Of a stretch of DNA of 45,797 bases, positions 1 to 45,797 are shown in pieces. The translations under genes were made by a program, and so were the position numbers. Origin of the DNA: a virus; IMG/VR virus record IMGVR_UViG_3300032157_000375, positions 1-45,797 of that record; one strand, given 5' to 3'. Position 1 is the first letter of the stretch. Every line of letters begins with the position of its first letter. The notes under the pieces are model-generated. The model worked only from the letters and a program-made list of their open reading frames with translations. It was not told where the DNA came from and did no database searches.

Positions 1-951
1 ATGGAAGCGAAGGCGCTGACGTTCCGACTGATTGACCCCTTTACCGCCCTGGCGGCGTGGCCGCTGGCCAAGATCCTTGGATTGTTCCGGCGTGCCGGGC
101 TCGGGAACCTCCCGCAGACCCGCGACGCGATGGTGAACGCCGGCAGCATCCCGATCCGGAATCACTACTACGATCCCCAGATCAGCTTCGAGAAGTACGA
201 CGATGAGACCGAGCGGGATCTCCCCGGCATCGACCTCAACGAAGCCGGCCAGCGCGCCTTCCTCGAGCGCCTGGTCTACGCCCACGAGCTGCGCGAGATG
301 AACATCCGCACGGGCGGCACGTCGACGGACTACTTCCATTTCGGCGGTGCCAACGACCAGTTCGGGCCCGGCGATGCCGAGGTGCTCTACCAGGTCGTGC
401 GCGCGTTGAAGCCGAAGCGGATCATCGAAATCGGCTCGGGCTGGTCGACGAAGCTCGCCTACCAGGCCTGCGAGAAGAACCGCAAGGATGGCGTCTCCAG
501 CCGCCATACCTGCATCGAGCCATACGAGGATCGAGGCCTGCGCCGCATGGGGATCGACCTCGTGCGCCAGCGCGTCGAGGACATGGACTTGAAGCTCTTC
601 AACGAGCTCGGCGCCGGCGACATCCTGTTCATCGACTCGACGCACATCATCCGCCCGCATGGCGATGTGACGCGGGAGTACCTGCAGATCCTGCCGCGGT
701 TGAAGCCCGGCGTGGTCGTGCACGTGCACGACATCTTCACGCCGAGGAACTACCCGCGCCGGTGGATCGTCGACGAGCTCAGGTTCTGGAACGAGCAGTA
801 CATCCTGGAGGCCTTCCTCACCGGGAACGACCGGTTCGAGATCCTGCTCGCAAACAATTGGATGCACTCGAAGGGCGGGCTTTCGGCCGTGGCGCCCTAC
901 GTGCAGGCGCACCACAAGCCGGGCTCCTTTTATATGAGGAAGCGGGCCTGA
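1..951 (+). CDS. Class I SAM-dependent methyltransferase
   Basis: A 316-residue protein with the class I methyltransferase core. Motif I is at residues 140-150 (RIIEIGSGWST, the SAM-binding glycine loop). An acidic strand follows later (DILFIDSTH), then a central strand near VVVHVHDIF. It resembles the Methyltransf_24 type often found in polysaccharide or surface-glycan clusters; the substrate cannot be read from sequence. There is no signal peptide, so it is probably cytoplasmic. The window opens exactly on its ATG, so upstream context is missing. Its neighbour is a PEP-CTERM gene, which fits a host exopolysaccharide/exosortase locus rather than the prophage. Fold confidence is high, pathway only inferred. 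Confidence 0.8.
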   Translation: MEAKALTFRLIDPFTALAAWPLAKILGLFRRAGLGNLPQTRDAMVNAGSIPIRNHYYDPQISFEKYDDETERDLPGIDLNEAGQRAFLERLVYAHELREMNIRTGGTSTDYFHFGGANDQFGPGDAEVLYQVVRALKPKRIIEIGSGWSTKLAYQACEKNRKDGVSSRHTCIEPYEDRGLRRMGIDLVRQRVEDMDLKLFNELGAGDILFIDSTHIIRPHGDVTREYLQILPRLKPGVVVHVHDIFTPRNYPRRWIVDELRFWNEQYILEAFLTGNDRFEILLANNWMHSKGGLSAVAPYVQAHHKPGSFYMRKRA

Positions 952-1138
952 CGGCCGAGCAGGCGGTCAGAATCTCGATCAGGAGGTCGATGGGTTGGCG
1001 GGATCGCATGTAGCGATTGTGGGTGGCGGGCAGCACCTGGTGGTGCTGTGAATCTGGCGGGAATGCAGAGATATCCGCGTCGGTGCCTTTTACACCCTGC
1101 GCTGCAGCGGGGTGCCTAACACTCTGATATTCAACAAA

Positions 1139-1155
1139 TGGCACGGTTGGTGCTT
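1139..1155 (+). promoter_or_regulatory. Sigma-54 (RpoN) type promoter of the PEP-CTERM gene
   Basis: TGGCACGGTTGGTGCTT has GG at 1140-1141 and GC at 1152-1153, the required GG-N10-GC spacing, and differs from the -24/-12 consensus mainly by one base in the -12 element. It lies about 33 bases before the ATG of the PEP-CTERM gene, which has a purine-rich ribosome site (GGGGGCGG). PEP-CTERM genes in some bacteria, such as Zoogloea, are controlled by RpoN with the PrsK/PrsR pair, so the placement makes sense. The rest of 952-1187 shows nothing clear. Confidence 0.65.
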
Positions 1156-1187
1156 GGTCCGCCCCTTAAGAACAACAGGGGGCGGAC

Positions 1188-1826
1188 ATGCGTGCACTCA
1201 CCTTCATCGCGCTGCTGGCGGCCGCAGCTTCGGCCAACGCGGCGATCGTCAAATACGAATACACCGGCGCGGAGTACGACTACGTCGCCGACCCATCCGA
1301 TCCCACTGTGGGCGAGAATCCGTGGGTCGATCGGACGCAGAACCATATGTCCGGCTTCTTCTTGTTAGACACTAGCCTCGTGCCTGGCGGCGATCACCGT
1401 AACGGCACCTTCGAGCTCGGCGCGGACAAGGAATGCACGGAAGACTGCGGCCCGCTTCTCGATTACTTGTTCTTCGACGGCCTCAGGACCGAGACCTTGG
1501 CGACATGGGATGTGTCCGCACTTTTCAGGTTCACGACCGATGGCCATGGCGAGCTCACGGCGTGGGACATCGTCCTGCTGCAGGACTTCGAAGAGCTTTG
1601 GGTGACCGACCGTGGAGACGGCCGCAACTTCCCGGCCTGCGGCAATTGGGAGCCCACCGAAAGCGCATGCGTGATGAACCGTGAGGCGGGCACCTGGCGC
1701 CAGGTCCCGGTGCCAGAGCCTAGTGCGTTAGGGTTGGCGATCGCCGCGCTCGCCGGCGCCGCGTTCCTGAGATTGCAGACGTCTACAAAACGCGGGCGGC
1801 GAGCTCGCACTTCTCCGCCAGCCTGA
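1188..1826 (+). CDS. PEP-CTERM sorting domain protein
   Basis: A 212-residue secreted protein. Residues 1-19 form a Sec signal peptide (MRALTFIALLAAAASANAA). The C-terminus has the PEP-CTERM tripartite signal: VPEPS at 175-179, a hydrophobic segment at about 180-195 and a basic cluster KRGRR near 201. Such proteins are cleaved by exosortase EpsH/XrtA-type enzymes and displayed or released with exopolysaccharide. The middle region has four cysteines and no domain I recognise. After the basic cluster there are several extra residues (ARTSPPA), while most family members stop at once. The last 44 bases overlap a convergent prophage gene, so the 3' end may be hybrid sequence made by phage integration (inference). 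Confidence 0.85.
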   Translation: MRALTFIALLAAAASANAAIVKYEYTGAEYDYVADPSDPTVGENPWVDRTQNHMSGFFLLDTSLVPGGDHRNGTFELGADKECTEDCGPLLDYLFFDGLRTETLATWDVSALFRFTTDGHGELTAWDIVLLQDFEELWVTDRGDGRNFPACGNWEPTESACVMNREAGTWRQVPVPEPSALGLAIAALAGAAFLRLQTSTKRGRRARTSPPA

Positions 1827-4590: not shown

Positions 4591-7041
4591 TCAGCTGCCG
4601 TCGTTGTGGCCGTGGCTAACGGTGACCGTGTTGGTGGTCGCGGTGCGGCTAATGTTGTCCGTCACCACGCACTGCACCGTCACCGAGATGTAGATCTGAT
4701 CCGATGGGTCCTGCGAGGTTCGCACCTGGCAGCTCTGCGACGTGCCATTGAGCAGCGTCGGCGTGCCGTCCGGATCGTCCTCGGCCACGATCGACCAGGC
4801 GTAGGTGTACGGCGCGGTGCCACCGCTCGGCGTGGCGGTGATGTTGTTGCTGGTGATCGTGGTCGCGTTGGCCGTCTTGACGATCGGCGACGTGCCCGCG
4901 GCCGTGGCGGTGAACGAAGGCGTCCGCACGATCGACACCGGCACGTCGACGATGTACGTCTGCGCGGCGCTGTCCGTGACCGTGCAACGCGCCACACCGG
5001 AGCGTGACTCCGGATCCGCGAGGGTTGTCGCGCTGAACGTCGTGGCCGCCGCGGTTGGGCTCGTAATCGTGATGCCGGATCCGCCGCTCGCCCAAGTCCA
5101 CGCGTAGGTGTATGGCGAAGTGCCGCCATTCGGCGTGACGGTGACGCTCCCCGTGGTCTGGCTCGCGCCGGTGCCCGAGCTCGAGGCGCTGCCCGGCGAT
5201 GCGCTCGCGGTGAGCGTGGCCGATACTCCGAGGGCGGCGCCCGCGACGCCACCGCCCGAGGGCACCCAATCCGAGTACTCGCCGTGCTTTTTCGAGCGCA
5301 CCCGAAAGTAGTAAGTCGTGGTCGACGTGCGATCAATATAAGCCTGGTTGTCCGTGCCATCGTAGACCGTGGTGGCGCCGGACATATCCGAGTTGGTCGA
5401 GGCCTCGACTTCGTAGAGAACGCCTTGCGTCGAGGACCGCGTCCAGCGGAAGAGCACCGCGTCGGTCTGCGGCACCGTCACCGGCGCCGACGGCGCGGCG
5501 GGCCGCTCCACCTGGCGGATCGTGGCCACCGTGTTGGGCGTGATGTAGTCGGCCGTCTCGATCGGAACGTACACGCTCGCCGCGTCAGATTTCGCGGTGC
5601 ACACCACGCGGCCCGCCTCGGCCGTGAACTCGAGCTGCCGCTCGATGTTGCGGAATACGCGGTTGGTCCAGCCGAAAGTTGTATGGCTCAGCTGGAACGT
5701 CTCGCCGGGCGCGATCTTCAGGAGATTGAGGGCGCCGCGGATGTTGATGATCCGCATTTGCCGAGACTTGCGCAGCTCGATCTCACAGAGACGTTGGGCT
5801 CGGTACTTGTCCACACACCCGCGCAGCACGATCTCCTTCGGAATGAACTCCCCGCCATCCTGGTCCTGGTAGGTGGAGTAGGTGCGAAATGGAGTCGTCT
5901 GCTGAATGTAGTCGTTGGCCTCGTCAATGAAGACGCCGGCGACAGCGTTGTATCGATCTTGGTCGTCGGTCGTGTCCTGGATCTCGATCGGCGCTTCCTC
6001 GAGCGTGTAGAGATCGTCCTGGGTGATGGTGTGCAGCGGCGTGTCGTAGCCGCCGGCGTACACCCGCCACTTTCCGTGCGGGTACACCGCGTGCCCCGCC
6101 ATCGACTGCAGAATGGCCTCGAGGATCTCCCTGCGGGTCTCCCCCGTGCTCACCTCGAGATCGTTGTTCCAGGTGACCTGGTCGCCGTCAGGCGTGACGT
6201 ACGCGCCGGTGAGCTGCGTGTCGTTGACGTTGGCCGCGGCCGCGAAGTACGGATCGTCGATGCGCGAATCCGCCTCGCGGAAGCCATAGCGAATCAGCCT
6301 GGTCGCTTGATCGTTGACCACCGAGCCACCGGAGATGTAATGGCGGGCATGCAACGCCGGGTTGCGCGTGAATTCCCAGGTGCTCGGATTGTCGCGACGG
6401 TGGCTGCCGCTGCCGCCGTTGGTCGAGTCCTTCCGCGGGTCGTAGCAAAGCGCGCCTTCAATGATGGCCGTGATGTTCTGCGGCGCCCCCTGCGGCCACT
6501 TGTCCTGGTCCCGCAGCATCTTCACGTGAATGTAGGTCACACCACGCAGCCGGTGCGATGACGACCAGGTGCCGGGGAACGCAGCAACAAGGGCACTGTC
6601 CGCCGTCTGGGCCTGTGTCCCGAGGTACTTGGTGATCCAGCACACGCCCGCGAGCGGGCCTGAGGTCACCGCTCCGCCACCGTCGATTTGGTCCTCGAGC
6701 ACTCGGATCTTGTCGATCCACACGTCTCGGATGGCGTTGCACTGGTGACCAGCGAACACCACCACGTAGTGAAGGTATTCGTTGTCCTCTCCCGACGCTC
6801 CGAAGAAGACTATGGCTCCACCGCACCGGGTGCGTCCGAAAACCAGGCGACGGTTCTCGATCGTGTTGCGGATCGTGACATTGACTGGTGGTGGCGTGCC
6901 GGCGGAGCGGCGAGCGCGCGAGCGCGCGAGCGCACCAAGAATCACGTTGACCAACACCATGCGCACCAGCTGCGCCACGGTGCCTTTCGCAACGAGGAAG
7001 GCGCCGACCACCTTCAGGCCGGCAGCAAAACCTGCGCCCAT
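4591..7041 (-). CDS. Tail tip / host specificity protein (lambda gpJ-like)
   Basis: An 816-residue protein that should form the central tip of the tail and contact the host receptor. The N-terminal 50 residues contain a hydrophobic Ala/Val/Leu stretch; the middle (about 150-500) has the gpJ-like tail-hub core (for example IMSVTYIHVKM-like and YNAVAGVFIDEANDY segments). The C-terminal third holds an FN3-like domain (residues about 525-610) and at least two Ig/PKD-like repeats with SPYTYAW or APYTYAW motifs. The ATG at 7041 overlaps the upstream stop (TAATG). The repeats probably extend the tip toward the cell surface. Confidence 0.8.
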   Translation of the reverse strand: MGAGFAAGLKVVGAFLVAKGTVAQLVRMVLVNVILGALARSRARRSAGTPPPVNVTIRNTIENRRLVFGRTRCGGAIVFFGASGEDNEYLHYVVVFAGHQCNAIRDVWIDKIRVLEDQIDGGGAVTSGPLAGVCWITKYLGTQAQTADSALVAAFPGTWSSSHRLRGVTYIHVKMLRDQDKWPQGAPQNITAIIEGALCYDPRKDSTNGGSGSHRRDNPSTWEFTRNPALHARHYISGGSVVNDQATRLIRYGFREADSRIDDPYFAAAANVNDTQLTGAYVTPDGDQVTWNNDLEVSTGETRREILEAILQSMAGHAVYPHGKWRVYAGGYDTPLHTITQDDLYTLEEAPIEIQDTTDDQDRYNAVAGVFIDEANDYIQQTTPFRTYSTYQDQDGGEFIPKEIVLRGCVDKYRAQRLCEIELRKSRQMRIINIRGALNLLKIAPGETFQLSHTTFGWTNRVFRNIERQLEFTAEAGRVVCTAKSDAASVYVPIETADYITPNTVATIRQVERPAAPSAPVTVPQTDAVLFRWTRSSTQGVLYEVEASTNSDMSGATTVYDGTDNQAYIDRTSTTTYYFRVRSKKHGEYSDWVPSGGGVAGAALGVSATLTASASPGSASSSGTGASQTTGSVTVTPNGGTSPYTYAWTWASGGSGITITSPTAAATTFSATTLADPESRSGVARCTVTDSAAQTYIVDVPVSIVRTPSFTATAAGTSPIVKTANATTITSNNITATPSGGTAPYTYAWSIVAEDDPDGTPTLLNGTSQSCQVRTSQDPSDQIYISVTVQCVVTDNISRTATTNTVTVSHGHNDGS

Positions 7042-20607: not shown

Positions 20608-21741
20608 TCACGGCCCGTTGAGTTCTGCAGGACGCACCGATCTCGTGCGTGCCGCATCGAGTGCTGCATGTACATCGGCCGTGCCGACATGCAGGTAGGC
20701 CTCGGTTTGCTCAAGCGAGGCGTGGCGCATGCACTTCTGTACGACGCCTGGCGAGACACCTATCGCGTTCAATCGGGCGGGCAATCCATGCCTGAACGCG
20801 TGCATCCCGGCGTGCTTGAGGCCCAGTCGTTTCAGCGTCGGTCTGAGCTGCCTGGTCCTGACATTGTTGGCCCATAACGGCTTGCCATTGCGGGACACGA
20901 ACAGCAGCCCCTGATCGTTGGTCTGCCATCCCTGCTGGTACGCCTTGAGCAGCTCGGCCAGCTCGGGAAGGATGGGAACATCCGCCCGTGACGTAACCGT
21001 CTTCGGGAGCTGCAGCTTCCCCTGCACTGTCGATTGCCTGACCTTGATCACCAGGGCATCGAGGTCGATGTGCGCCCAGGTGAGCCCGAGCGCCTCGCTA
21101 CACCTCAGCCCTGCATACCCCATGACAGCCCACAACGTGCGCCACGGATCCTCGCTGCCTTCGAGCAGCAGCCTGAGTTCCTGGTCACCGATGTTCCGCT
21201 TGTCACGACCAATGGCCGAGGCCTTGGGCAGCTTGATCGCCTTTCGGTCAATGCGATGCACTGAGAAGCCGTCGCGCCTCGCCTGGGCGAGCGCCTGCAG
21301 CAGAATGGCCAGGATGCTGCGGATAGTTTCACGTGCCTTCGTCGGCGCGATGCGCGCGATATAGCCTTGTATGCGCCTCACGTCGACGCGCTCGAGCAGC
21401 TCGCCCTCGAATTCTCGTGCCAGGTGGAAACCGATCACCGATTTGTACCGGCGCTGCGAGCTCGGGCGCATCAGTGCCACGTGCATCGCCGTGAAGTGCG
21501 CCAGGTACTCACCCACCGTCACCTGCACGCCAGGCTCGAGAGTCTCGGGATTCTGCGAAACCAGCCACCGATCGGCTGCGGCTCGCGCTGCAGACTTACT
21601 CCGCAGATTGCTTTTGTCCCCAATGGTCACTCGCTGCTGCCTGGCGCAGATCTCACCGGTGTCTCGGTTGAGTTCCTTGCGCCTGAGCCTCAAGTACCAG
21701 GTCGGACCGACGAGCTCGAGGTGGCCGGATCCAGCACGCAT
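20608..21741 (-). CDS. int: Tyrosine recombinase / phage integrase
   Basis: A 377-residue tyrosine recombinase with an N-terminal SAM-like DNA-binding domain (about 72-165) and a C-terminal catalytic domain. The active-site residues are all present: R213 (GLRCSEALGL), a likely K247, H314 and R317 (HAFRH), H340 (MRHAS), and nucleophile Y349 (EAYLHV). So it should be active. Its ATG overlaps the stop of the gpZ-like gene (TGATG), which couples it to the late operon. Site-specific integrases are normally in early regions, and this phage also has a serine recombinase at its right end. Confidence 0.88.
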   Translation of the reverse strand: MRAGSGHLELVGPTWYLRLRRKELNRDTGEICARQQRVTIGDKSNLRSKSAARAAADRWLVSQNPETLEPGVQVTVGEYLAHFTAMHVALMRPSSQRRYKSVIGFHLAREFEGELLERVDVRRIQGYIARIAPTKARETIRSILAILLQALAQARRDGFSVHRIDRKAIKLPKASAIGRDKRNIGDQELRLLLEGSEDPWRTLWAVMGYAGLRCSEALGLTWAHIDLDALVIKVRQSTVQGKLQLPKTVTSRADVPILPELAELLKAYQQGWQTNDQGLLFVSRNGKPLWANNVRTRQLRPTLKRLGLKHAGMHAFRHGLPARLNAIGVSPGVVQKCMRHASLEQTEAYLHVGTADVHAALDAARTRSVRPAELNGP

Positions 21742-32400: not shown

Positions 32401-32619
32401 TTAGGCGTACTTCTTCATCGAGCCGGTTGGTTTGGCGGCGCCGAGCAGCACGTCTATCGACAGACCGGTCACGGTGCTGATCACTTTCAGGCGAGCTGGC
32501 CGCGGGTCGATGGAGCCGGACAGCCACTGGCTGACCGCGCCTGGGGTAACCCCCACCCGCTTGGCGAATGCCTCTTGAGACACCGCGTTCACCTCGAGCC
32601 ATCGCTTCAGTGCGTCCAT
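32401..32619 (-). CDS. Cro-like regulator
   Basis: A 72-residue protein with an XRE-type helix-turn-helix at about residues 14-35 (SQEAFAKRVGVTPGAVSQWL). Small, one-domain and divergent from the repressor gene, with operators between them, so it should act as Cro. It would repress the repressor promoter and its own promoter at high levels. Confidence 0.75.
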   Translation of the reverse strand: MDALKRWLEVNAVSQEAFAKRVGVTPGAVSQWLSGSIDPRPARLKVISTVTGLSIDVLLGAAKPTGSMKKYA

Positions 32620-32629
32620 TGCCTATAAC

Positions 32630-32700
32630 TTTAGGTCACCTGAATTACATAAAGCAATAGGTCACCTAAACACATTGCGGAATCCCAGTCGTGACCTTTA
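32630..32700. promoter_or_regulatory. Three-part operator between cro-like and repressor genes
   Basis: O1 at 32630-32644 (TTTAGGTCACCTGAA), O2 at 32658-32668 (TAGGTCACCTA, a perfect dyad), O3 at about 32689-32700, where the plus-strand TCGTGACCTTTA is a degenerate site. O1 and O2 centres are 26 bases apart. These are likely sites for the repressor and Cro-like proteins, as in lambda OR. Confidence 0.7.
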
Positions 32701-32777: not shown

Positions 32778-33170
32778 ATGGCGAGGCCGTTTTCAACAGT
32801 GACGGACAAGAATGCACAGCTGCTCAGGAATGAGCACGCGCGGATCAACGCTGAACGCAAGTCGCGTGGCCTGGGAAAGCTGTTGCTGAAGGATCTGGCG
32901 GTGAAATGGAAAACATCCCCGGGCCTGGTGTCTCAGTATTACCGTGGTCACGAGCCGCTCAACACGAAGTGGAAGATGCGCTTCGCGGAATGGATGGGGG
33001 TTTCCCCGGTCAAGGTCTGGCCGGACTTCGAGCACAAAACGCTGGTGACCAATGAGTTGTCGCCGGAGATGGCCGAGCTCGTGAAGACGCTGGCGGATAA
33101 TTTCGATGAAGACCAGATCGACGCGTTGAAGGCGCTCGTCGCGGCGACGATGAAGAAACGCAAGGGATAA
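32778..33170 (+). CDS. Short lysogenic repressor with XRE helix-turn-helix
   Basis: A 130-residue protein. Residues about 30-68 are an XRE-type helix-turn-helix (KLLLKDLAVKWKTSPGLVSQ and a following EWMGVSPVKVW). The C-terminal part is helical and may dimerise; there is no LexA/S24 peptidase domain, so RecA-driven autocleavage is unlikely. I chose the ATG at 32778; a GTG at 32691 would lie in the third operator and gives a poor start. Together with the Cro-like protein it should set the lytic-lysogenic switch. Confidence 0.7.
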   Translation: MARPFSTVTDKNAQLLRNEHARINAERKSRGLGKLLLKDLAVKWKTSPGLVSQYYRGHEPLNTKWKMRFAEWMGVSPVKVWPDFEHKTLVTNELSPEMAELVKTLADNFDEDQIDALKALVAATMKKRKG

Positions 33171-33172
33171 TC

Positions 33173-33853
33173 GTGCGGCCGGCACGGATCGCTTTGCTCG
33201 CCCTTGCCCTGGTTGCCGGAGTGGCTGTAATGGCCGAGCAACCCCAGCTGGATTTCTACGACAAGCGCATACTCCGGCGGGCTCAGTTCCTCTGCAAGTG
33301 GGCGGAGACGAATGCCCCAGGTAATCCGGTCAGGATCCGAGCGTGCGATCCGACCTGGCCGTACAGTTACGAGGAAACACGCAACGACACTGCGGACTGG
33401 TGGATGCACTGGCAAGACGGCGATCGCGCTGCACAGTTACGACGCGATTTTGAGGACGCCGCAGATGATCTGGACGCCGAGGTCGAGCTTGCAGAGGCAA
33501 AGGAAGCGAAGCGCCAGGCAGCAGCTGCAGCCAAAGCCCGCCGGGAAAGGCAGGTTGCATCTATCCCGTCAATGAACGTAGCGCAGTTGTGCTCGGAGAT
33601 CCGGGTTCACGCCACCACTGCAGCGCTCGAAGAGCTTGTTAGGCGCAACGCGTTCCCAGCTGCCGAAATTTCTTATATTGCGTCCAGGCGCGCCTTCATC
33701 GGCATGACGGAAGGCGGCATGCTGTGTGCGTTCGGCCAGCCGACCCGCGCGAATCGGACTGTCACGGCACGCGGGACAACGATCCAGTTCGTCTTCCCTT
33801 CCGGCGTCTTCATCTACACCGATGATGGCAAGGTAACCGCCTTCCAAGATTGA
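33173..33853 (+). CDS. Secreted protein with BamE-like C-terminus
   Basis: A 226-residue protein starting at GTG 33173 with a signal peptide (residues about 1-21, ALLALALVAGVAVMAEQ). A helical, Ala/Lys/Glu-rich middle (about 90-130) is followed by a C-terminal BamE/SmpA-like domain (FIGMTEGGMLCAFGQPTRAN, then FIYTDDGKVTAFQD). It follows the repressor by 2 bases, so it is likely expressed in the lysogen. It may act at the cell envelope, for example in superinfection exclusion (inference). Confidence 0.65.
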   Translation: MRPARIALLALALVAGVAVMAEQPQLDFYDKRILRRAQFLCKWAETNAPGNPVRIRACDPTWPYSYEETRNDTADWWMHWQDGDRAAQLRRDFEDAADDLDAEVELAEAKEAKRQAAAAAKARRERQVASIPSMNVAQLCSEIRVHATTAALEELVRRNAFPAAEISYIASRRAFIGMTEGGMLCAFGQPTRANRTVTARGTTIQFVFPSGVFIYTDDGKVTAFQD

Positions 33854-33869
33854 TGCGGCAACGCACCGA

Positions 33870-33885
33870 TGTGATCTGACTCACA
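33870..33885 (+). promoter_or_regulatory. CRP box, perfect TGTGA-N6-TCACA
   Basis: TGTGATCTGACTCACA fits the CRP consensus without mismatch. The centre is about 60 bases upstream of the predicted start of the promoter at 33902-33930, the class I position. This suggests cAMP-dependent activation of the DGR operon. It is a palindrome, so another CRP-family protein is possible. Confidence 0.75.
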
Positions 33886-33901
33886 TAGTTTAGGCTGCCT
33901 A

Positions 33902-33930
33902 TTGTTTTCATAAGTTAGGCTGGCTATACT
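33902..33930 (+). promoter_or_regulatory. Promoter of the DGR operon
   Basis: -35 TTGTTT (33902-33907), 17-base spacer, -10 TATACT (33925-33930). The 13-base repeats TTAGGCTGCCTAT (about 33890) and TTAGGCTGGCTAT (about 33915) lie around the -35 and spacer and could be operator sites. The leader (33931-33958) has a small hairpin and a weak ribosome site. Confidence 0.75.
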
Positions 33931-33958
33931 TTTTCCGGGTTCGGAAAAGGTGGCCAAT

Positions 33959-34168
33959 ATGGAAGCAAGCTCTCCCGATCACGCGTTCCGCCAGCCGGCG
34001 TCGCTCGACGATGCTTTGAAGGGTCTATCAGCCGACCAGGCGCTGGAACTCCAGCTAGTCCAGGACGCGATGGACGCCCGGGTCGACAAGGTACGCGCGG
34101 ACAAAGCCTTCACCGAAGCCCAGGCGAGACTCCTGCAGTTCCGCGCCGAGCAGCAGGAGGCCGCGTGA
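33959..34168 (+). CDS. Small hypothetical first gene of the DGR operon
   Basis: A 69-residue helical, Glu/Gln-rich protein starting MEASSPDHAFRQPAS. It ends EAQARLLQFRAEQQEAA. It overlaps the first target gene by GTGA. Unknown family; likely a coiled-coil partner or a leader peptide gene. Confidence 0.55.
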   Translation: MEASSPDHAFRQPASLDDALKGLSADQALELQLVQDAMDARVDKVRADKAFTEAQARLLQFRAEQQEAA

Positions 34169-34734
34169 GCCGCCCTGCCAAGCGCGCCGGCGTGCGCATC
34201 GAATCGTTCAGCTCCAAGGCGCTGACCCAGCTGAGCGGGCTTCTGGCGCCGACAGCCATCACTCCCGCCCGAACGGTTGCCATAGCGCCAGTCGCACGCT
34301 TCACCAAGGTGAGTGCGGCGGGCGCCCTTCTTCCCGATTCCGCCACCGAGTGGGTTGCCGTCTACGACCGCGAGCAGGACCTGGTTTTCTCCCGCAGCGT
34401 TCTGGACGGAACCCACACCTGGGCGAAGGCGAAGAAAGCTGCGGAGGCCGCGAAGATCTGCGGCGTGACCGGATGGCGCATGCCGACGGTCATGGAGCGT
34501 TTCCGCATTTGCGACCACTCGCGCGTGTATCCGGCACTTCCCATCGAGTACTTCAACGCGGACAGCGGTTGGGAGTGGACATCCACTGTCGACGCTGAGT
34601 CCCCCTCGGACGACGCGTGGAGCGTCGGCCTCAGCTACGGCAATTCCGGTCGGCATCGCCAGGGCTGCGACTATCACGTCCGTGCGGTGCGCGCCGGTCA
34701 GTTATTCGGCTTTTGTACTTCCGGAGAAGCCTGA
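34165..34734 (+). CDS. Variable protein 1 (DUF1566/Lcl-type), DGR target
   Basis: A 189-residue protein starting GTG 34165 (GTGA overlap). From about residue 45 it has a DUF1566/Lcl pattern: AVYDREQDLVFSR, a GTHTWAKAKKAAE helix, TGWRMPTVMERF, then WEWTST and the variable segment (145-178). The fold should be C-type-lectin-like, whose variable surface residues come from template AAC/AAT codons. There is no signal peptide. The C-terminus extends 11 residues after VR1. Confidence 0.88.
   Translation: MSRPAKRAGVRIESFSSKALTQLSGLLAPTAITPARTVAIAPVARFTKVSAAGALLPDSATEWVAVYDREQDLVFSRSVLDGTHTWAKAKKAAEAAKICGVTGWRMPTVMERFRICDHSRVYPALPIEYFNADSGWEWTSTVDAESPSDDAWSVGLSYGNSGRHRQGCDYHVRAVRAGQLFGFCTSGEA
34599..34698 (+). 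repeat. DGR variable repeat VR1
   Basis: A 100-base copy of the template at 38651-38750, with 11 substitutions at template A positions and one at a template T (34612, T to G). The last 24 bases are identical to the template, followed by CAG where the template has GAG. Confidence 0.93.
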
Positions 34735-36963: not shown

Positions 36964-37437
36964 ATGAAGCCCACGTACACGAAGCTCGCGGCCGACGGCA
37001 CTGATCTGCCGGCCGACCACCCGAACGACGGACCCGACAAGCACCTCGCGGTGCGCGTCGATCACCCGCTCCTGAAAGAGCCGCTGATCGTGGCCGCCTA
37101 CCGCGCCGGCACCAGCGTGCAGTGGAAGGACGCGGCGGCCGCGGCCGAGGCGCACCAGGCGTACGGCTGGAAGTGGCGGTTGCCGGCGGTCGAGGAATTG
37201 TTCCTGGTCGCCGATCGCACGAACCCGGCCTGCAAGCTCGATCCGAACTTCTTTCCGGATGCCGAGGGCTGGGAGTGGACCTGGACGGCGACGCCGGATG
37301 CCGAGCTCGAGGAAGACGAAGACGGTGCGCCGTCCCCCTCGGGCTGCGCGTGGGGCGTCAGCCTCAGCTACGGCTATTCCTATCGGCTTCTCCAGGGCTT
37401 CGGCTATCACGTCCGTGCGGTGCGCGCCGGTCAGTAG
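36964..37437 (+). CDS. Variable protein 2, DGR target
   Basis: A 157-residue DUF1566/Lcl-type protein. It has a KDAAAAAEAHQAYGWKWRLP helix-strand pattern, WEWTWTATP, then the variable segment (123-156) which ends the protein with a single Gln. No signal peptide. AAGGGAG lies upstream. It differs from the other two in its N-terminal half but shares the fold. Confidence 0.88.
   Translation: MKPTYTKLAADGTDLPADHPNDGPDKHLAVRVDHPLLKEPLIVAAYRAGTSVQWKDAAAAAEAHQAYGWKWRLPAVEELFLVADRTNPACKLDPNFFPDAEGWEWTWTATPDAELEEDEDGAPSPSGCAWGVSLSYGYSYRLLQGFGYHVRAVRAGQ
37332..37431 (+). repeat. DGR variable repeat VR2
   Basis: A 100-base copy of the template with 15 substitutions, all at template A. It is followed by CAG and the stop codon TAG. 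Confidence 0.93.
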
Positions 37438-37473: not shown

Positions 37474-38142
37474 ATGAAGAAGAAGTCCACGAAGCGCGCG
37501 AAGGTCGCGGTGCCTGCCGTCCTCGAGTCGGTTGCCCAGCCGCCGGCGATCAACATCACTATCGCGCAAACGTTCGACGCGCGCGGCGCCGCCGAAGGCC
37601 TGATCGACCAGCTGCCCGGGATCCTGCAGGCGGCGAATGAGAACCTGCGGGCCGAGCTCGTCGAGCGCCTGCGTACGGCGTCGATCGCCAAGGTGGTTCC
37701 GCCGAAGTCCGCCGTCGCCGTGCGCTTCTGCAAGGTGGCGAGCGATGGCCGCGCGCTGCCAGCGAGCGCCAGCGACTGGGAAGGCGTCTACGACGCGACG
37801 ACTGGTCTCATCTGGGGCCGGCGGTTGCTCGCCGGCGAACGGAACTGGAAAGACGCCGTGAAGGCCGCCGGCGAAGCGACGCTCTGCGGCGCGCCTGCGC
37901 GCGCACCCACCATTCAGGAGCGGTTGTCGATCGTCGACTACCAGCGCGTTGAACCGGCGCTGGACGTCACGTTCTTCGACCCGAAGGAGACCTCGGCGTG
38001 GGAATGGACCTCGACGCCTGCCGCGTCCCCCTCGGACTACGCGTGGTTCGTCAACCTCAGCGGCGGCTATTCCTATCGGTATCTCCAGAGCTCCGCCTAT
38101 CACGTCCGTGCGGTGCGCGCCGGTCAGCCCATCGGACTTTGA
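37474..38142 (+). CDS. Variable protein 3, DGR target
   Basis: A 222-residue protein, basic N-terminus (MKKKSTKRAKVA), a helical region to about residue 90, then the DUF1566/Lcl core (GVYDATTGLIWGRRLL, KDAVKAAGEAT, PTIQERLSIVDY, WEWTST) and the variable segment (184-217). It is closest to variable protein 1. GGAG lies upstream of its ATG. No signal peptide. Confidence 0.88.
   Translation: MKKKSTKRAKVAVPAVLESVAQPPAINITIAQTFDARGAAEGLIDQLPGILQAANENLRAELVERLRTASIAKVVPPKSAVAVRFCKVASDGRALPASASDWEGVYDATTGLIWGRRLLAGERNWKDAVKAAGEATLCGAPARAPTIQERLSIVDYQRVEPALDVTFFDPKETSAWEWTSTPAASPSDYAWFVNLSGGYSYRYLQSSAYHVRAVRAGQPIGL
38025..38124 (+). repeat. DGR variable repeat VR3
   Basis: A 100-base copy of the template with 11 substitutions, all at template A. 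It is followed by CAG, then CCCATCGG. Confidence 0.93.
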
Positions 38143-38157: not shown

Positions 38158-38595
38158 GTGAAGTGTGAACTACCGCAAATCGTGAAAGACGCGCAGCGCG
38201 CAAGGGCCGCCATCGAGCAGGCCTTCACACGCATGGCGCGTCGGCACAAGTACTCGACCGGCGTGGATCTTCGCAGCGCGGCGAAGGGGGTCGTGCTCGT
38301 TGCGCTTCGCGCGTGGCGGGATCCCGCCGGTCGACTCGATCGCGTGCGCCAGCTGTGCGAAGCGGTGGACGCTCTCAAGGTGGATCTGCAGCTCGGCAAG
38401 GATGTCGACGCCTTCCGTAGCTTCCGTGAGTTTGAGGCGATCGTGCGCCTCGTCGACGAAGTGGGCCGGCAGAGTGGAGGCTGGCTGAAACGACTGCTAC
38501 CGAAGGGCCAGGATGCCCGGGCTGATCATCCGCCTGCGCAGCGTGCCCCGATACTGAGTTCCCGATCCGCCTCACGCGCTGGGGCAACACCATGA
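38158..38595 (+). CDS. avd: Avd-like DGR accessory protein
   Basis: A 145-residue protein, GTG 38158, of the four-helix-bundle Avd type, with the region LQLGKDVDAFRSFREFEAIV and DEVGRQSGGWLKRL near residues 80-117. Avd forms a pentamer that binds the reverse transcriptase and template RNA and is needed for mutagenic cDNA synthesis. The last 30 residues are low-complexity. Its stop overlaps the RT start by ATGA. Confidence 0.85.
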   Translation: MKCELPQIVKDAQRARAAIEQAFTRMARRHKYSTGVDLRSAAKGVVLVALRAWRDPAGRLDRVRQLCEAVDALKVDLQLGKDVDAFRSFREFEAIVRLVDEVGRQSGGWLKRLLPKGQDARADHPPAQRAPILSSRSASRAGATP

Positions 38596-39872
38596 CGATG
38601 CCGCGCTACCTCGGATGTGCGGCAGGGTCCGAAGTGATCGGGATAGCGCCGTCCCCCTCGGACTACGCGTGGAACGTCAACCTCAGCAACGGCAATTCCA
38701 ATCGGAATCACCAGAGCTACGACAATCACGTCCGTGCGGTGCGCGCCGGTGAGTGTCACGGTGCGGTCTCGTTACGCAGCCTCTACTCTGCCTGGCGCCA
38801 GGCGCGCCGCGGGAAGAAGCCGAGCCTGGACCAGATGCTGTTCGAGGCCCGGTGGGTCGACGAGCTCCTGGACATCCAGCGCCGCCTGAACGGCCTGCAC
38901 TGGTACCCCATGGCGCCCACGTGCTTCATCGCCCTGGCGCCGAAGGCCCGCGAGATCCACGCGCCGCGCTTCGCGGACCGGGTTGTTCACCATCTCATCG
39001 TTCCCGAGCTCGAGCGGGTGTTCGAGCCGAAGTTCATCCACGACAGCTATTCGAACCGGGTCGGCAAAGGAACGCACGCGGCCGTCGCGCGCCTGCGGCA
39101 GTTCATTCGCCAGGTCGAGTCCGGCCAGGGTGGTGGCTACTACCTGCAGCTCGACATCCGTAACTTCTTCGCCAGCATCCATCGGCCAACGCTCTGGTCG
39201 CTTCTCAAGCCGCGCATGGAGCGCGCCGCCATCTCACTCCCTGTCAGGAAGGCGGTGCATGCGCTTTTGACCTGGCCGATCCAGCGGACCGGCGTCGTGT
39301 GGGCCTGCGACCAAGCTGAGCGCGAGGCCGTGCCGGCGCACAAGCGGTTGGAGAACTCCCCGCCCGGCTGCGGCATTGCCATCGGCAATCTCTCATCCCA
39401 GTTCTTCGCGAACGTCTATCTCGATCGGCTCGATCAATTCGTGAAGCATGAGCTTCGAGCGGCGCGGTACGTCCGCTACGTCGATGACTTCGTGCTGGTG
39501 CACCATGACCGCCGGCAGCTGGAGGTCTGGCACGAGGCGATCGCCGCGTTCCTCGAGCGAGAGCTGCGGCTTGAGCTCAAGGCCGACGTGAAGCTCAGGA
39601 CGCTCGCCGACGGCATCGACTTCCTCGGCTACGTGCTCTTCCCCTCTCACGTCGTCACTCGCCGGCGGGTCATTGGCCATTGCCGCGCGAAGCTCGCCGC
39701 CTGGGAGCGCACGCATTGTCACGCTGGCCACATCACGGAGAGCCGCAAGGCGCTGGAGGCGGTGCGCTCGATCTGGTCGAGCTACTCGGGTCACTTCGCG
39801 CATGCGAGCAGTTTCAAGCTGCGTCTCGACATCTACCGCAGGTTTCCCTGGCTCTCGCGGGTGATGGCATGA
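38592..39872 (+). CDS. DGR reverse transcriptase with in-frame template repeat
   Basis: A 426-residue frame. The RT part is from about residue 57. Catalytic motifs: YLQLDIRNFF with D188, the DGR motif IGNLSSQ at 264-270 ([ILV]GxxxSQ) and YVDD at 296-299. The enzyme copies template RNA with errors at A. Residues 20-53 are the template repeat itself in the same phase as the targets. No ATG is in frame after the template; a GTG at about residue 50 is possible. Start at 38592 is chosen from its ATGA overlap with avd. Confidence 0.9.
   Translation: MTMPRYLGCAAGSEVIGIAPSPSDYAWNVNLSNGNSNRNHQSYDNHVRAVRAGECHGAVSLRSLYSAWRQARRGKKPSLDQMLFEARWVDELLDIQRRLNGLHWYPMAPTCFIALAPKAREIHAPRFADRVVHHLIVPELERVFEPKFIHDSYSNRVGKGTHAAVARLRQFIRQVESGQGGGYYLQLDIRNFFASIHRPTLWSLLKPRMERAAISLPVRKAVHALLTWPIQRTGVVWACDQAEREAVPAHKRLENSPPGCGIAIGNLSSQFFANVYLDRLDQFVKHELRAARYVRYVDDFVLVHHDRRQLEVWHEAIAAFLERELRLELKADVKLRTLADGIDFLGYVLFPSHVVTRRRVIGHCRAKLAAWERTHCHAGHITESRKALEAVRSIWSSYSGHFAHASSFKLRLDIYRRFPWLSRVMA
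38651..38750 (+). repeat. DGR template repeat TR
   Basis: The 100-base template matching VR1-VR3. It has 23 A; only three (A of the first AGC, A of CAG, A of the last CAC) are unchanged in all three copies. Seven Asn codons (AAC/AAT) give the greatest diversity. The 3' end is GC-rich and A-free (24 bases), ending GGT, then GAG, whereas the VRs have CAG; this is the likely IMH* against IMH difference. Confidence 0.93.
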
Positions 39873-40517: not shown

Positions 40518-40756
40518 CCCAGACGCGTCGGCAATCGATGATCGAAGCCGCCACCAACATCGTGGTCGGGATCCTGCTCAACACGATCCTGAACTTCACG
40601 ATCTTTCCGCGGCTCGGTTTTCATATCACCGCCAGCACCAACGCGCTGCTGGTGGTCGTCTACACCGGCGCCAGCCTCCTGCGTTCGTATGTGCTGCGCC
40701 GCCTCTTCAATCGCTGGCATCGGCCGGCATCACTCCAATCGAGGAATCCGCTGTGA
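40514..40756 (+). CDS. Phage membrane protein (DUF7220-like)
   Basis: An 80-residue protein starting MTQTRRQSMIEAATNIVVG, with two hydrophobic segments (about 12-30 and 38-60) then YVLRRLFNRW. The pattern is that of DUF7220 proteins, common in phages near ParB and RT genes. Function unknown. ATGA overlap with both neighbours. Confidence 0.7.
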   Translation: MTQTRRQSMIEAATNIVVGILLNTILNFTIFPRLGFHITASTNALLVVVYTGASLLRSYVLRRLFNRWHRPASLQSRNPL

Positions 40757-42372
40757 CCCAGACCAGCAAGGGCGAGTTTCGCCTCATCAATCCGACGCTG
40801 ATCAAGTTCTCCAATTCAGTCGCCCAAGCCGAACGCCGCAAGCACTTCAACGCCGAGCAGCTCAAGGAGCTGATCGAGAGTGTCAAGGCGAACGGCATCG
40901 TCCAGCCGATCGTGGTGCGCCCAGCGTTCCGCAGCAAGGTTCTGAACCACCTCGAGGGCGATCCAGAGTTCGAGGTCGTCGCCGGCGAGCGTCGCGTGAT
41001 AGCCGCGCGCAAGGTTGGCCTCGAAGTCGTGCCTGCAATGCTTCACCAGCTGGATGATGAGCAGGCGCTCGACGTCCAGCTGATCGAGAACCTGCAGCGC
41101 GAAGGCCTGCACCCACTGGTCGAGGCGGAAGGCTACGAGGACCTGAAAGGCCGCGGTCACTCGATCGAAGAGATTGCCGATCGTGTCGGCAAGTCCACGT
41201 CGTACATCTACAAACGTCTGGAGCTCACCGGCTGCTGCAAGCAGGTCCGCGCCGCGTTCTACGATGGGAAAATCGACGCGTCACGCGCCCTGGCGCTGGC
41301 CACGATCAAGGACGAAGAGCAGCAGAAGCAGTGCCTCAAAGAGATCACCGCGGAAAACGAATGGCGCCCCGCGATGAGCTTTCGCCAGGTGATGTCTCAC
41401 ATCCGCGAGAACTACCGCCTGCAGCTGAGCTCGGCCCCGTTCAAGACCGAGGACGCAAACCTGGTGCCCGCCGCCGGCCCGTGCGGTAAGTGCCCCAAGA
41501 ACACGTCGCGGCAGCCCGAGGATCTCTTTGGAGACGTATCCAAGAATCCAAAGGCGATGTGCACCGACTCGAAGTGCTTCCAGCAGAAGTGCGTTGCGGC
41601 CGCGGCCATCGTCTCGGCGGCGGCGCGTGCGAACGGGCAGATCGTCATCGAGGGCGATGCGGCGAAGAAGATCATTCCGAAGGACAGCTACAAGAACCAG
41701 CCTTCGGACAGCAGCGGCTATGTGGCACTTGATGAGAAGTGCTACGACGACCCGAAGTACCGCACCTATCGGGAGATCATCGGCAAACACATGACGCCGG
41801 CGATCGTGATCTCGCCGAAGGACAACAGCGCCGTCGAGGTCATTAAGGAAACCGACTTCGCGAAGGCCTGCAAGGACAAGGGTATCAAGCTCGAGTCGCG
41901 GGCGAGCTCGTCGAGCGGTGGCGGATCCAGCCATCACGAGGCGCAGAAGAAGGCGAAGGCCGAGACGAAGTTCCGCCGGACGACGTACGAAGCTGTGCGT
42001 CCCAAGCTCCCGGAAAAGCTCGGCCGCTCGGATCTCGCCTTCGTCGCCAGCACGCTGGTCGACCAGGCTGGCGATGAAAGCCGCAAGGAACTCACCCGGC
42101 TATGGATGCCCGACTACAAGGGCGAGGCCTGGAATGCGATGCGTGCGCTCGAGAAGAAGATCGACGGCCTCAAGGAGCACGAGCTCGTCCTGCTGATTCA
42201 GGACTGCCGCTACGCGCGCGAGCTGCGCGCCAGCACCTACAGCAATTCCAGGCCGGAGGCCTTGCTCGAGGCTGCAAAACGGGCACGCGTCGACGTCGAC
42301 AAAATCCGTAAGGAGTGCACGCCGGTGAAGAAGGTCAAAGCCAAAAAGGCGGCCGGAAAGAAAAAGGCCTGA
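40753..42372 (+). CDS. ParB/Spo0J-like protein with zinc-type insert
   Basis: A 539-residue protein, GTG 40753. The N-terminal ParB domain has GERR at 78-81 and LIENLQRE at 110-117, a CTP-binding pattern. A helix-turn-helix follows (137-156, IEEIADRVGKSTSYIYKRL). A Cys-rich region near 240-290 (CGKC, CTDSKC..KC) may bind zinc; the C-terminus is Lys/Ala-rich. No ParA is near. Phage-encoded ParB-like proteins of this type can be DNA-binding regulators or clamp-like factors. Confidence 0.8.
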   Translation: MTQTSKGEFRLINPTLIKFSNSVAQAERRKHFNAEQLKELIESVKANGIVQPIVVRPAFRSKVLNHLEGDPEFEVVAGERRVIAARKVGLEVVPAMLHQLDDEQALDVQLIENLQREGLHPLVEAEGYEDLKGRGHSIEEIADRVGKSTSYIYKRLELTGCCKQVRAAFYDGKIDASRALALATIKDEEQQKQCLKEITAENEWRPAMSFRQVMSHIRENYRLQLSSAPFKTEDANLVPAAGPCGKCPKNTSRQPEDLFGDVSKNPKAMCTDSKCFQQKCVAAAAIVSAAARANGQIVIEGDAAKKIIPKDSYKNQPSDSSGYVALDEKCYDDPKYRTYREIIGKHMTPAIVISPKDNSAVEVIKETDFAKACKDKGIKLESRASSSSGGGSSHHEAQKKAKAETKFRRTTYEAVRPKLPEKLGRSDLAFVASTLVDQAGDESRKELTRLWMPDYKGEAWNAMRALEKKIDGLKEHELVLLIQDCRYARELRASTYSNSRPEALLEAAKRARVDVDKIRKECTPVKKVKAKKAAGKKKA

Positions 42373-44047: not shown

Positions 44048-44341
44048 ATGCCAAAGAAATTGACCGCAGAGACCGACCGAAACAAAGCGGCAGCCAAGGC
44101 CCTGAGGGCGTTCGCGGCGCGCATCGAGAATGGCGAAATCGACCTGGTGGAGATCAGCCGCAGCCGCGATCTCCATGAGGCAACGTCGTGGAGCGATATA
44201 GGCGCGACGTTCGTACCCGGCGCTGAAAGGCTCACGATCAAATTCCATCGTGTCTCGAAATCCATAGGCCACACGTCACTAAGTGATTCGGCCGACAAGC
44301 CAGCGCCAAAGCTGCGAGCGAAGGCGAAGCGCCGGCGCTGA
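44048..44341 (+). CDS. Small hypothetical protein before the recombinase
   Basis: A 97-residue protein, ATG 44048, with GGAG 6 bases upstream. Basic ends, a beta segment (FVPGAERLTIKFHRV). Unknown; one base before the recombinase start. Confidence 0.6.
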   Translation: MPKKLTAETDRNKAAAKALRAFAARIENGEIDLVEISRSRDLHEATSWSDIGATFVPGAERLTIKFHRVSKSIGHTSLSDSADKPAPKLRAKAKRRR

Positions 44342-44342
44342 C

Positions 44343-45797
44343 ATGCGCTGCATCCTTTACGCGCGCTTTAGCACAGATCGCCAGTCCGAGAGTTCGATCG
44401 AGGATCAGCTGCGCGTCTGCCAGGAATACATCCGCGGCCGCGGCTGGAGCGTCGCCGGCGAGTTCAGCGATCACGGCATAAGCGGCGCCGCGCTCGGCAA
44501 TCGACCTGGCGTGCAAGCCGCTCTCACGCTCCTGACATCCGGTGACGCGCTGGTGATCACGGACCTTTCGCGCCTGTCGCGATCGCAGGACCTGGCTCCC
44601 CTGCTCTCGCGTCTTCGCTTCCGCGGCGTGCGCGTGCTCGGCGTCCAGGATGGTTACGATACCGAGGCGCGGACCGCGCGCATGCAGGCGGGCCTGTCGG
44701 GAATCATGTCCGAAGAGTTCCGCATGATGGTGGCCGACCGTACGCGCTCCGCGCTCGAGCAGCGCGCGCGGGACGGCCGCCCGACTGGTGGCAAGGCCTT
44801 CGACAATGCCGACTTGGTGCGCGAGATCTTCACGCGCTTCGCCGCCGGCGAGTCGATGCGCGCGATCGCGAGCGACCTGAACGGCCGCGGGATCCCCTCA
44901 CCAGGCGCGCAGTGGAAAGAGCGCAGCCGGCCTCGAGGCGCGTGGCAGGTATCGACCTTGCACACCCTCTTGCAGAACGAGCTCTACGCGGGCCGGCAGA
45001 TCTGGAATCGGTCCCGGTGGGTCAAGGATCCGGACACCGGCAAGCGCCAGCGGATCGAGCGACCGCGGTCCGAGTGGGTGGTCCGGGAGATCGAGCCCAT
45101 CGTCGATGAGGTCACCTGGCAGCGCGTCCAGGCGCGTTTCGTGAAGCACCCCGGGCACAACAATCGGGGCAGCTACATCCTGTCAGGGTTGCTCGTATGC
45201 GGCCTGTGCGGCGGCAAGCTCATCGTGGTGGGAGGCAGCCAGCGCCGGTACGTCTGCGGCACCCACCACGCGGCCGGGCCCCATGCCTGCGCCAATCGCA
45301 AGGGCATACCGAGGCTCACGGCCGAGACGCGGATCCTCGCCCGTACGAGGGCCGAGCTGCTGTCTGCGGAGGCCGAGGCGGCTGGGCTGAGGGAGATGCG
45401 CGCGGCCCGTGCCGAGCTCGAGCGTGAGGCCCAGCGGCCGGGCGAGGTCGATCGGGACGTCCGGGAGCTCGAGCGTCTGGTGCGCGAGGGCATCCTGAGT
45501 CCGGAGGCGGCCGCCCCGTCCCTCGATGCAGCCCGCAGGAGGGCCGCTCAGCGGCGCTCGAAGCCGGTCGAGGGGTTGCCCTGGCCGACGGCCGCGGCGT
45601 GGCGGGAGGCTGTGAACGACCTCTCAGAATTGCTTATGAGCGAGGATCCGGCGGCTGCGCGCGCCGCGCTTCGCGAGATCATCGGCGAGGTGCGCTGCTA
45701 TCCGGCCGAAGACCACGTGGTCGCAGAGCTGGCAGCAGTGCGAGTAGTCCTGGCCACCGGCACAGGTATATCAATTGGTAGCGGGGGCAGGATTTGA
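44343..45797 (+). CDS. Large serine recombinase (phage integrase)
   Basis: A 484-residue protein. The resolvase domain starts at ATG 44343, with catalytic S10 in YARFSTDRQS and the DLSRLSR helix at 75-81. It is followed by a recombinase domain (about 155-280), a zinc ribbon with CGLCGGKL and CGTHH, and a coiled-coil region. It would integrate and excise the prophage by att site recombination. It ends exactly at the window edge. Together with the tyrosine recombinase it gives the phage two integrases. Confidence 0.9.
   Translation: MRCILYARFSTDRQSESSIEDQLRVCQEYIRGRGWSVAGEFSDHGISGAALGNRPGVQAALTLLTSGDALVITDLSRLSRSQDLAPLLSRLRFRGVRVLGVQDGYDTEARTARMQAGLSGIMSEEFRMMVADRTRSALEQRARDGRPTGGKAFDNADLVREIFTRFAAGESMRAIASDLNGRGIPSPGAQWKERSRPRGAWQVSTLHTLLQNELYAGRQIWNRSRWVKDPDTGKRQRIERPRSEWVVREIEPIVDEVTWQRVQARFVKHPGHNNRGSYILSGLLVCGLCGGKLIVVGGSQRRYVCGTHHAAGPHACANRKGIPRLTAETRILARTRAELLSAEAEAAGLREMRAARAELEREAQRPGEVDRDVRELERLVREGILSPEAAAPSLDAARRRAAQRRSKPVEGLPWPTAAAWREAVNDLSELLMSEDPAAARAALREIIGEVRCYPAEDHVVAELAAVRVVLATGTGISIGSGGRI

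Follow-up and report, generated by a model that had tools for sequence, protein, structure and literature searches.

A predicted immunity-type promoter with a candidate CRP/Clp box upstream of a phage DGR operon

How DGRs are switched on is poorly known, and the locus analyzed here raises the question of whether a host regulator takes part. The window, meaning the whole stretch of 45,797 nucleotides that was analyzed (IMG/VR virus record IMGVR_UViG_3300032157_000375, positions 1 to 45,797), contains a CRP-type palindrome directly upstream of a DGR operon. The original prediction described this palindrome as a full consensus match at the class I position of the DGR promoter, through which carbon status would control when diversification is expressed.

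The operon itself is genuine. The window carries a true DGR with Lcl_C-type targets inside an early-type plus-strand operon, comprising a reverse transcriptase (RT), Avd, a single TR and three VRs whose changes are biased towards adenines, so that the box does precede a DGR operon, as had been claimed. Its features are as follows.

33959..34168, plus strand: 69-aa gene that opens the DGR operon; judged by position and size, 6652-6879 of the related phage L002 is its probable counterpart
34165..34734, plus strand: DGR target 1, Lcl_C / DUF1566 fold (Pfam Lcl_C, 1e-16)
34603..34702, plus strand: VR1, 11/13 changes at TR adenines
36964..37437, plus strand: DGR target 2, containing VR2
37331-37430, plus strand: VR2, 15/15 changes at TR adenines
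37474..38142, plus strand: DGR target 3, containing VR3
38024-38123, plus strand: VR3, 11/11 changes at TR adenines
38158..38595, plus strand: Avd accessory protein (PHROG Avd, 6e-12; Pfam bAvd below its cut-off)
38592..39872, plus strand: DGR reverse transcriptase (RVT_1 over its cut-off; PHROG RT, 7.5e-92)
38650-38749: TR, inside the RT gene at its 5' end and in frame with it

The in-frame position of the TR in the RT 5' end (38592-38760) means that the RT may begin with a VR-like peptide at its N-terminus, and the same arrangement is present in the related loci L002, L089, L090 and L094. A ParB-like gene (40753-42372) lies downstream of the window RT, and another follows the RT of L090 (11341-12993). 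Among known phages, Burkholderia phage Magia (MT701587) resembles the window in that its DGR combines Avd and RT with targets of the lectin fold, one of which adjoins the immunity repressor and Cro. The RT of Magia is only about 37% identical to that of the window.

The 105-nt gap upstream of the first operon gene (33854-33958) contains the box and the predicted promoter, P_DGR.

33870..33885, plus strand: CRP/Clp-type box TGTGATCTGACTCACA, 10/10 core of TGTGA-N6-TCACA, centre 33877.5
33889..33903, plus strand: operator-like site O1 TTTAGGCTGCCTATT, in the first 25-bp repeat, overlapping the start of the predicted -35
33902..33930, plus strand: predicted P_DGR, TTGTTT-17-TATACT, the best sigma70-like pair, with a start at about 33937
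33914..33928, plus strand: operator-like site O2 GTTAGGCTGGCTATA, in the second 25-bp repeat, overlapping the predicted -10

The P_DGR hexamers are a weak -35, TTGTTT (33902-33907), and TATACT (33925-33930), separated by a 17-nt spacer. Because this pair falls below the 9/12 cut of a generic promoter scan, which reported no promoter in the gap, the start is a prediction. The original prediction overlooked that P_DGR is built from two tandem 25-bp direct repeats (33884-33908 and 33909-33933), each with an operator-like site. O1 and O2 resemble sites in the gap between the divergent cro-like and repressor-like genes, and sites of this type occur three times in the window versus 0.21 expected. 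The immunity region comprises the following features.

32401..32619, minus strand: Cro/CI-type HTH protein, 72 aa (Pfam HTH_3, 3e-10; PHROG transcriptional repressor, 2e-11)
32630..32670: two operator-like sites in the cro-like/repressor-like gap, TTTAGGTCACCT at 32630 and TTTAGGTGACCTATT at 32656-32670 on the minus strand
32778..33170, plus strand: divergent gene in the repressor's place, HTH-like by eye
33173..33853, plus strand: protein with an apparent signal peptide, between the repressor-like gene and P_DGR

The product of the divergent gene (32778..33170) gave no family match in Pfam and PHROG profile searches, and its predicted fold was unusable (pLDDT 44). A homolog of this gene is present in record L003, flanked by the same operators, and the same operator type occurs in tandem at promoters beside cro homologs in L201 and L203; the Cro proteins of both are similar to the cro-like protein of the window. 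The 33173 protein was not found on other contigs, and a search for same-immunity prophages in 691 genomes of two gammaproteobacterial orders returned only two marginal matches.

Judged by its sequence, P_DGR is above all a phage promoter of the immunity type, with predicted operators on its -35 and -10 that resemble the sites of the cro/repressor region. By lambdoid analogy, we infer that O1 and O2 are bound as operators by the phage's own regulators. The site sequences, their repetition and placement, their resemblance to the immunity sites and the analogous layout in relatives together make it highly probable that phage proteins control P_DGR through them. In lysogeny, the prophage repressor or Cro on O1/O2 would shut the DGR operon, which would open on infection or induction, once the repressor is off.

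Related loci were collected by two scans with RT alignment, giving 159 further loci, of which the closest bacterial ones are mostly Lysobacterales prophages. The closest phage, L002 (RT 92% identical), combines the same operon with another immunity module, whose operators are GGATAAATTATCC and GGATTATTTATCC; the -35 there is TTGACA. The near-identical DGR operons and unrelated immunity modules of these two phages represent a modular swap directly upstream. In L094, the operator ATCACCATNCGGTGAT of the DGR promoter recurs in the gap between cro and the repressor gene. A 14-mer common to the immunity gap and a candidate promoter gap was found in 10 of the 42 loci in which both gaps were definable, the window included, a count equalled in 0 of 20 shuffles; several gaps per locus entered this comparison, so that some of the pairs may be due to chance. 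Convincing operator pairs, as judged from printed sequences and shared 14-mers, are present in L010, L112, L140, L143, L152 and L164. Because of these pairs, immunity control of DGR operons, with interchangeable operators, looks like a pattern shared by the relatives.

A parallel is provided by hankyphage, in which silencing of the CI-like repressor induces the phage, DGR activity included (PMC12135933). As with the hankyphage repressor RepC-HP (PMC12135933), the prophage repressor would here be expected to keep a temperate phage DGR silent until induction, whereas hankyphage is a Mu-like phage of Bacteroides with a tail-fibre target, and the window DGR has Lcl_C targets and lies in an early operon next to the immunity region. 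The operator layout thus offers a direct prediction, namely that early lectin-fold proteins would be diversified during lytic growth or infection, subject to immunity control, in this phage and in several relatives. Alternatively, the DGR operon could be expressed in lysogens mainly by read-through from the operon of the repressor-like gene, leaving P_DGR and the box to matter only lytically. The genes at 32778 and 33173 are on the same strand and run into the DGR operon, and a simple terminator scan found no plus-strand terminator-like site between 33853 and 33959. However, many terminators are missed by such scans, and a separate promoter region with operators would be superfluous under read-through, which we regard as quite improbable.

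Turning to the box, TGTGATCTGACTCACA is the sole exact TGTGAN6TCACA match in the 45.8-kb window. The claimed full match to the CRP consensus holds for this core (10/10), with a score of 15/22 against the full 22-bp E. coli consensus. Based on mononucleotide composition, an exact box is expected 0.0165 times in the whole window and 8.5e-5 times in the 105-nt gap; across all intergenic gaps of the window the expectation is 0.0012. Because these expectations are low, the box exceeds chance at its location, although they are post hoc, since a box for any well-known regulator could have been spotted. A class I position was taken to be a box centre near -61.5, -71.5 or -82.5 of the start. The box centre lies at -59.5 from the best predicted start, and at -61.5 with an alternative promoter pair (TTTTCA-16-TACTTT), in agreement with the distance of about -60 originally given, for starts that are themselves predicted. 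Like the Clp promoters of Xanthomonas and class I CRP-dependent promoters, the predicted P_DGR has a weak -35 preceded by a TGTGA-N6-TCACA core near -61.5; in contrast to these, the box of the window is a predicted site only, and the phage promoter that contains it has two operator-like repeats. Two other identities for the palindrome were rejected: as an intrinsic terminator, it folds no better than shuffled sequences (z -0.29) and has no T run, and as a third phage operator, it does not match the TTAGGYNRCCTA sites and falls outside the 25-bp register.

Comparison with the relatives bears on whether the box is functional, or is instead a chance or relic palindrome at a DGR operon controlled only by the phage repressor/Cro at O1/O2. 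The box is absent from the DGR upstream region of L002, the 92% relative, and conservation at orthologous promoters, which supports a class I assignment without strictly defining it, was not found. Among the 233 intergenic gaps that precede DGR genes, boxes of at least 9/10 numbered 2 versus 0.85 expected (those of the window and of L090, TGAGACTAGGGTCACA), and boxes of at least 8/10 numbered 12 versus 10.2 expected; given this lack of enrichment, the box was rejected as a general trait of DGR promoters. The L010 and L112 promoters have the same layout as P_DGR, with -35s that are also weak, and do without the box. A weak -35 therefore does not imply an activator, and was rejected as proof of the need for one, the relatives without a full box having similar -35 hexamers (TTGCAA/TTGCAT in L010, L112 and L140). 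Exact TGTGAN6TCACA sites number 2 versus 0.67 expected in 1.78 Mb of high-GC loci, which is near chance overall. Set against the chance or relic origin are the placement near -60 of P_DGR, for which about 0.001 sites are expected in the intergenic DNA of the window, and the location of the other exact palindrome in L003, the sole record with the same immunity module, where it belongs to a different operon and adjoins the leftward operon; this last coincidence is post hoc and comprises two cases. A chance or relic origin is a serious possibility, which we nevertheless consider rather improbable.

On the host side, two probable host genes at the left end of the window (1-1826), the first for a methyltransferase-like protein and the second for one whose tail is PEP-CTERM-like, suggest an integrated prophage. 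The best matches of the flanking gene (1-951) are only 47-51% identical and are spread over two gammaproteobacterial orders. A tyrosine integrase gene (20608-21741) lies among the structural genes, and a serine recombinase gene (44283-45797) at the right end of the record. CRP/FNR-family matches were found in 17/17 genomes with related DGRs, and a full-length CRP ortholog (46-60%) in 16/17 host genomes of relatives; the DNA-contacting residues R180, E181 and R185 are kept in 12/12 aligned orthologs. The sequence of the box, its spacing to the predicted promoter, and the intact DNA contacts of these orthologs in the relatives' hosts argue that a host CRP-family protein probably binds it.

These proteins do not support the claim that carbon status controls diversification. 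The cAMP-contact position S83 is occupied by E in nine of the 12 aligned orthologs, by G in one and by S in two, and E or G at this position is as expected of Clp-like proteins. Among the genomes closest by flanking gene, three have an S83 protein and one an E83 protein, and a close CRP ortholog was not found in G533, also near by flanking gene. Class I adenylate cyclase was found in 0/11 genomes examined, and class III adenylate cyclases in 5/11. Xanthomonas Clp binds DNA without an effector and is inhibited by c-di-GMP (PMC3528676), suggesting that the signal would be c-di-GMP, and not carbon status, if the host protein is of the Clp type. Because orthologs in many candidate hosts are Clp-type, carbon status does not follow from the box; given the S83/E83 mix, the cyclase results and Clp biology, it is only one option for the ligand.

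The reading that we tentatively prefer is of a phage-repressed early DGR promoter with possible, phage-specific activation by CRP or Clp via the box. In this mechanism, host CRP or Clp on the box would touch RNA polymerase from the class I position (about -60), and this contact would raise transcription while the phage repressor is off. That the box does raise DGR transcription is conceivable, though we lean against it. A host protein could also bind and act as a negative gate, repressing or competing, for example by altering repressor loading at O1: only 3 bp separate the box edge from O1 (18.5 bp from centre to centre), and in phage T1, lysogen promoters are under cAMP-CRP control, with CRP repressing pir (PMC6737242). 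The T1 lysogeny switch, in a phage without a DGR, resembles the present proposal in the host CRP input to temperate-phage promoters, but the position of the box fits class I activation, and a negative gate seems very unlikely. Under the preferred reading of a repressed promoter with possible activation, the DGR could be coupled through CRP or Clp to a second messenger of the host, such that targeted hypermutation of the early lectin-fold proteins occurs only with the repressor off and cAMP or c-di-GMP permissive; we consider this coupling unlikely. Host CRP-family control would be particular to this phage and not a general rule for DGRs; a working box would make targeted hypermutation responsive to host physiology as well. 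In the open literature searched, no papers linking DGRs with CRP binding sites were found, and the combination of immunity operators with a CRP-type box at a DGR promoter appears unreported there.

Palindromes of related type were also observed elsewhere among the relatives. In L003, the perfect palindrome TGTGACGCGCGTCACA (5667-5682) lies downstream of cro, and a TACTAT at 5700 on the plus strand makes conceivable a P_RE-like promoter that would read towards the repressor gene and into it, antisense to cro. In L089, the perfect palindrome TGTGCGTTACCGCACA (6400-6420), with an 8/10 CRP match, precedes the early operon; relative to a TTGACT promoter that has operators of its own, it lies at about -125.
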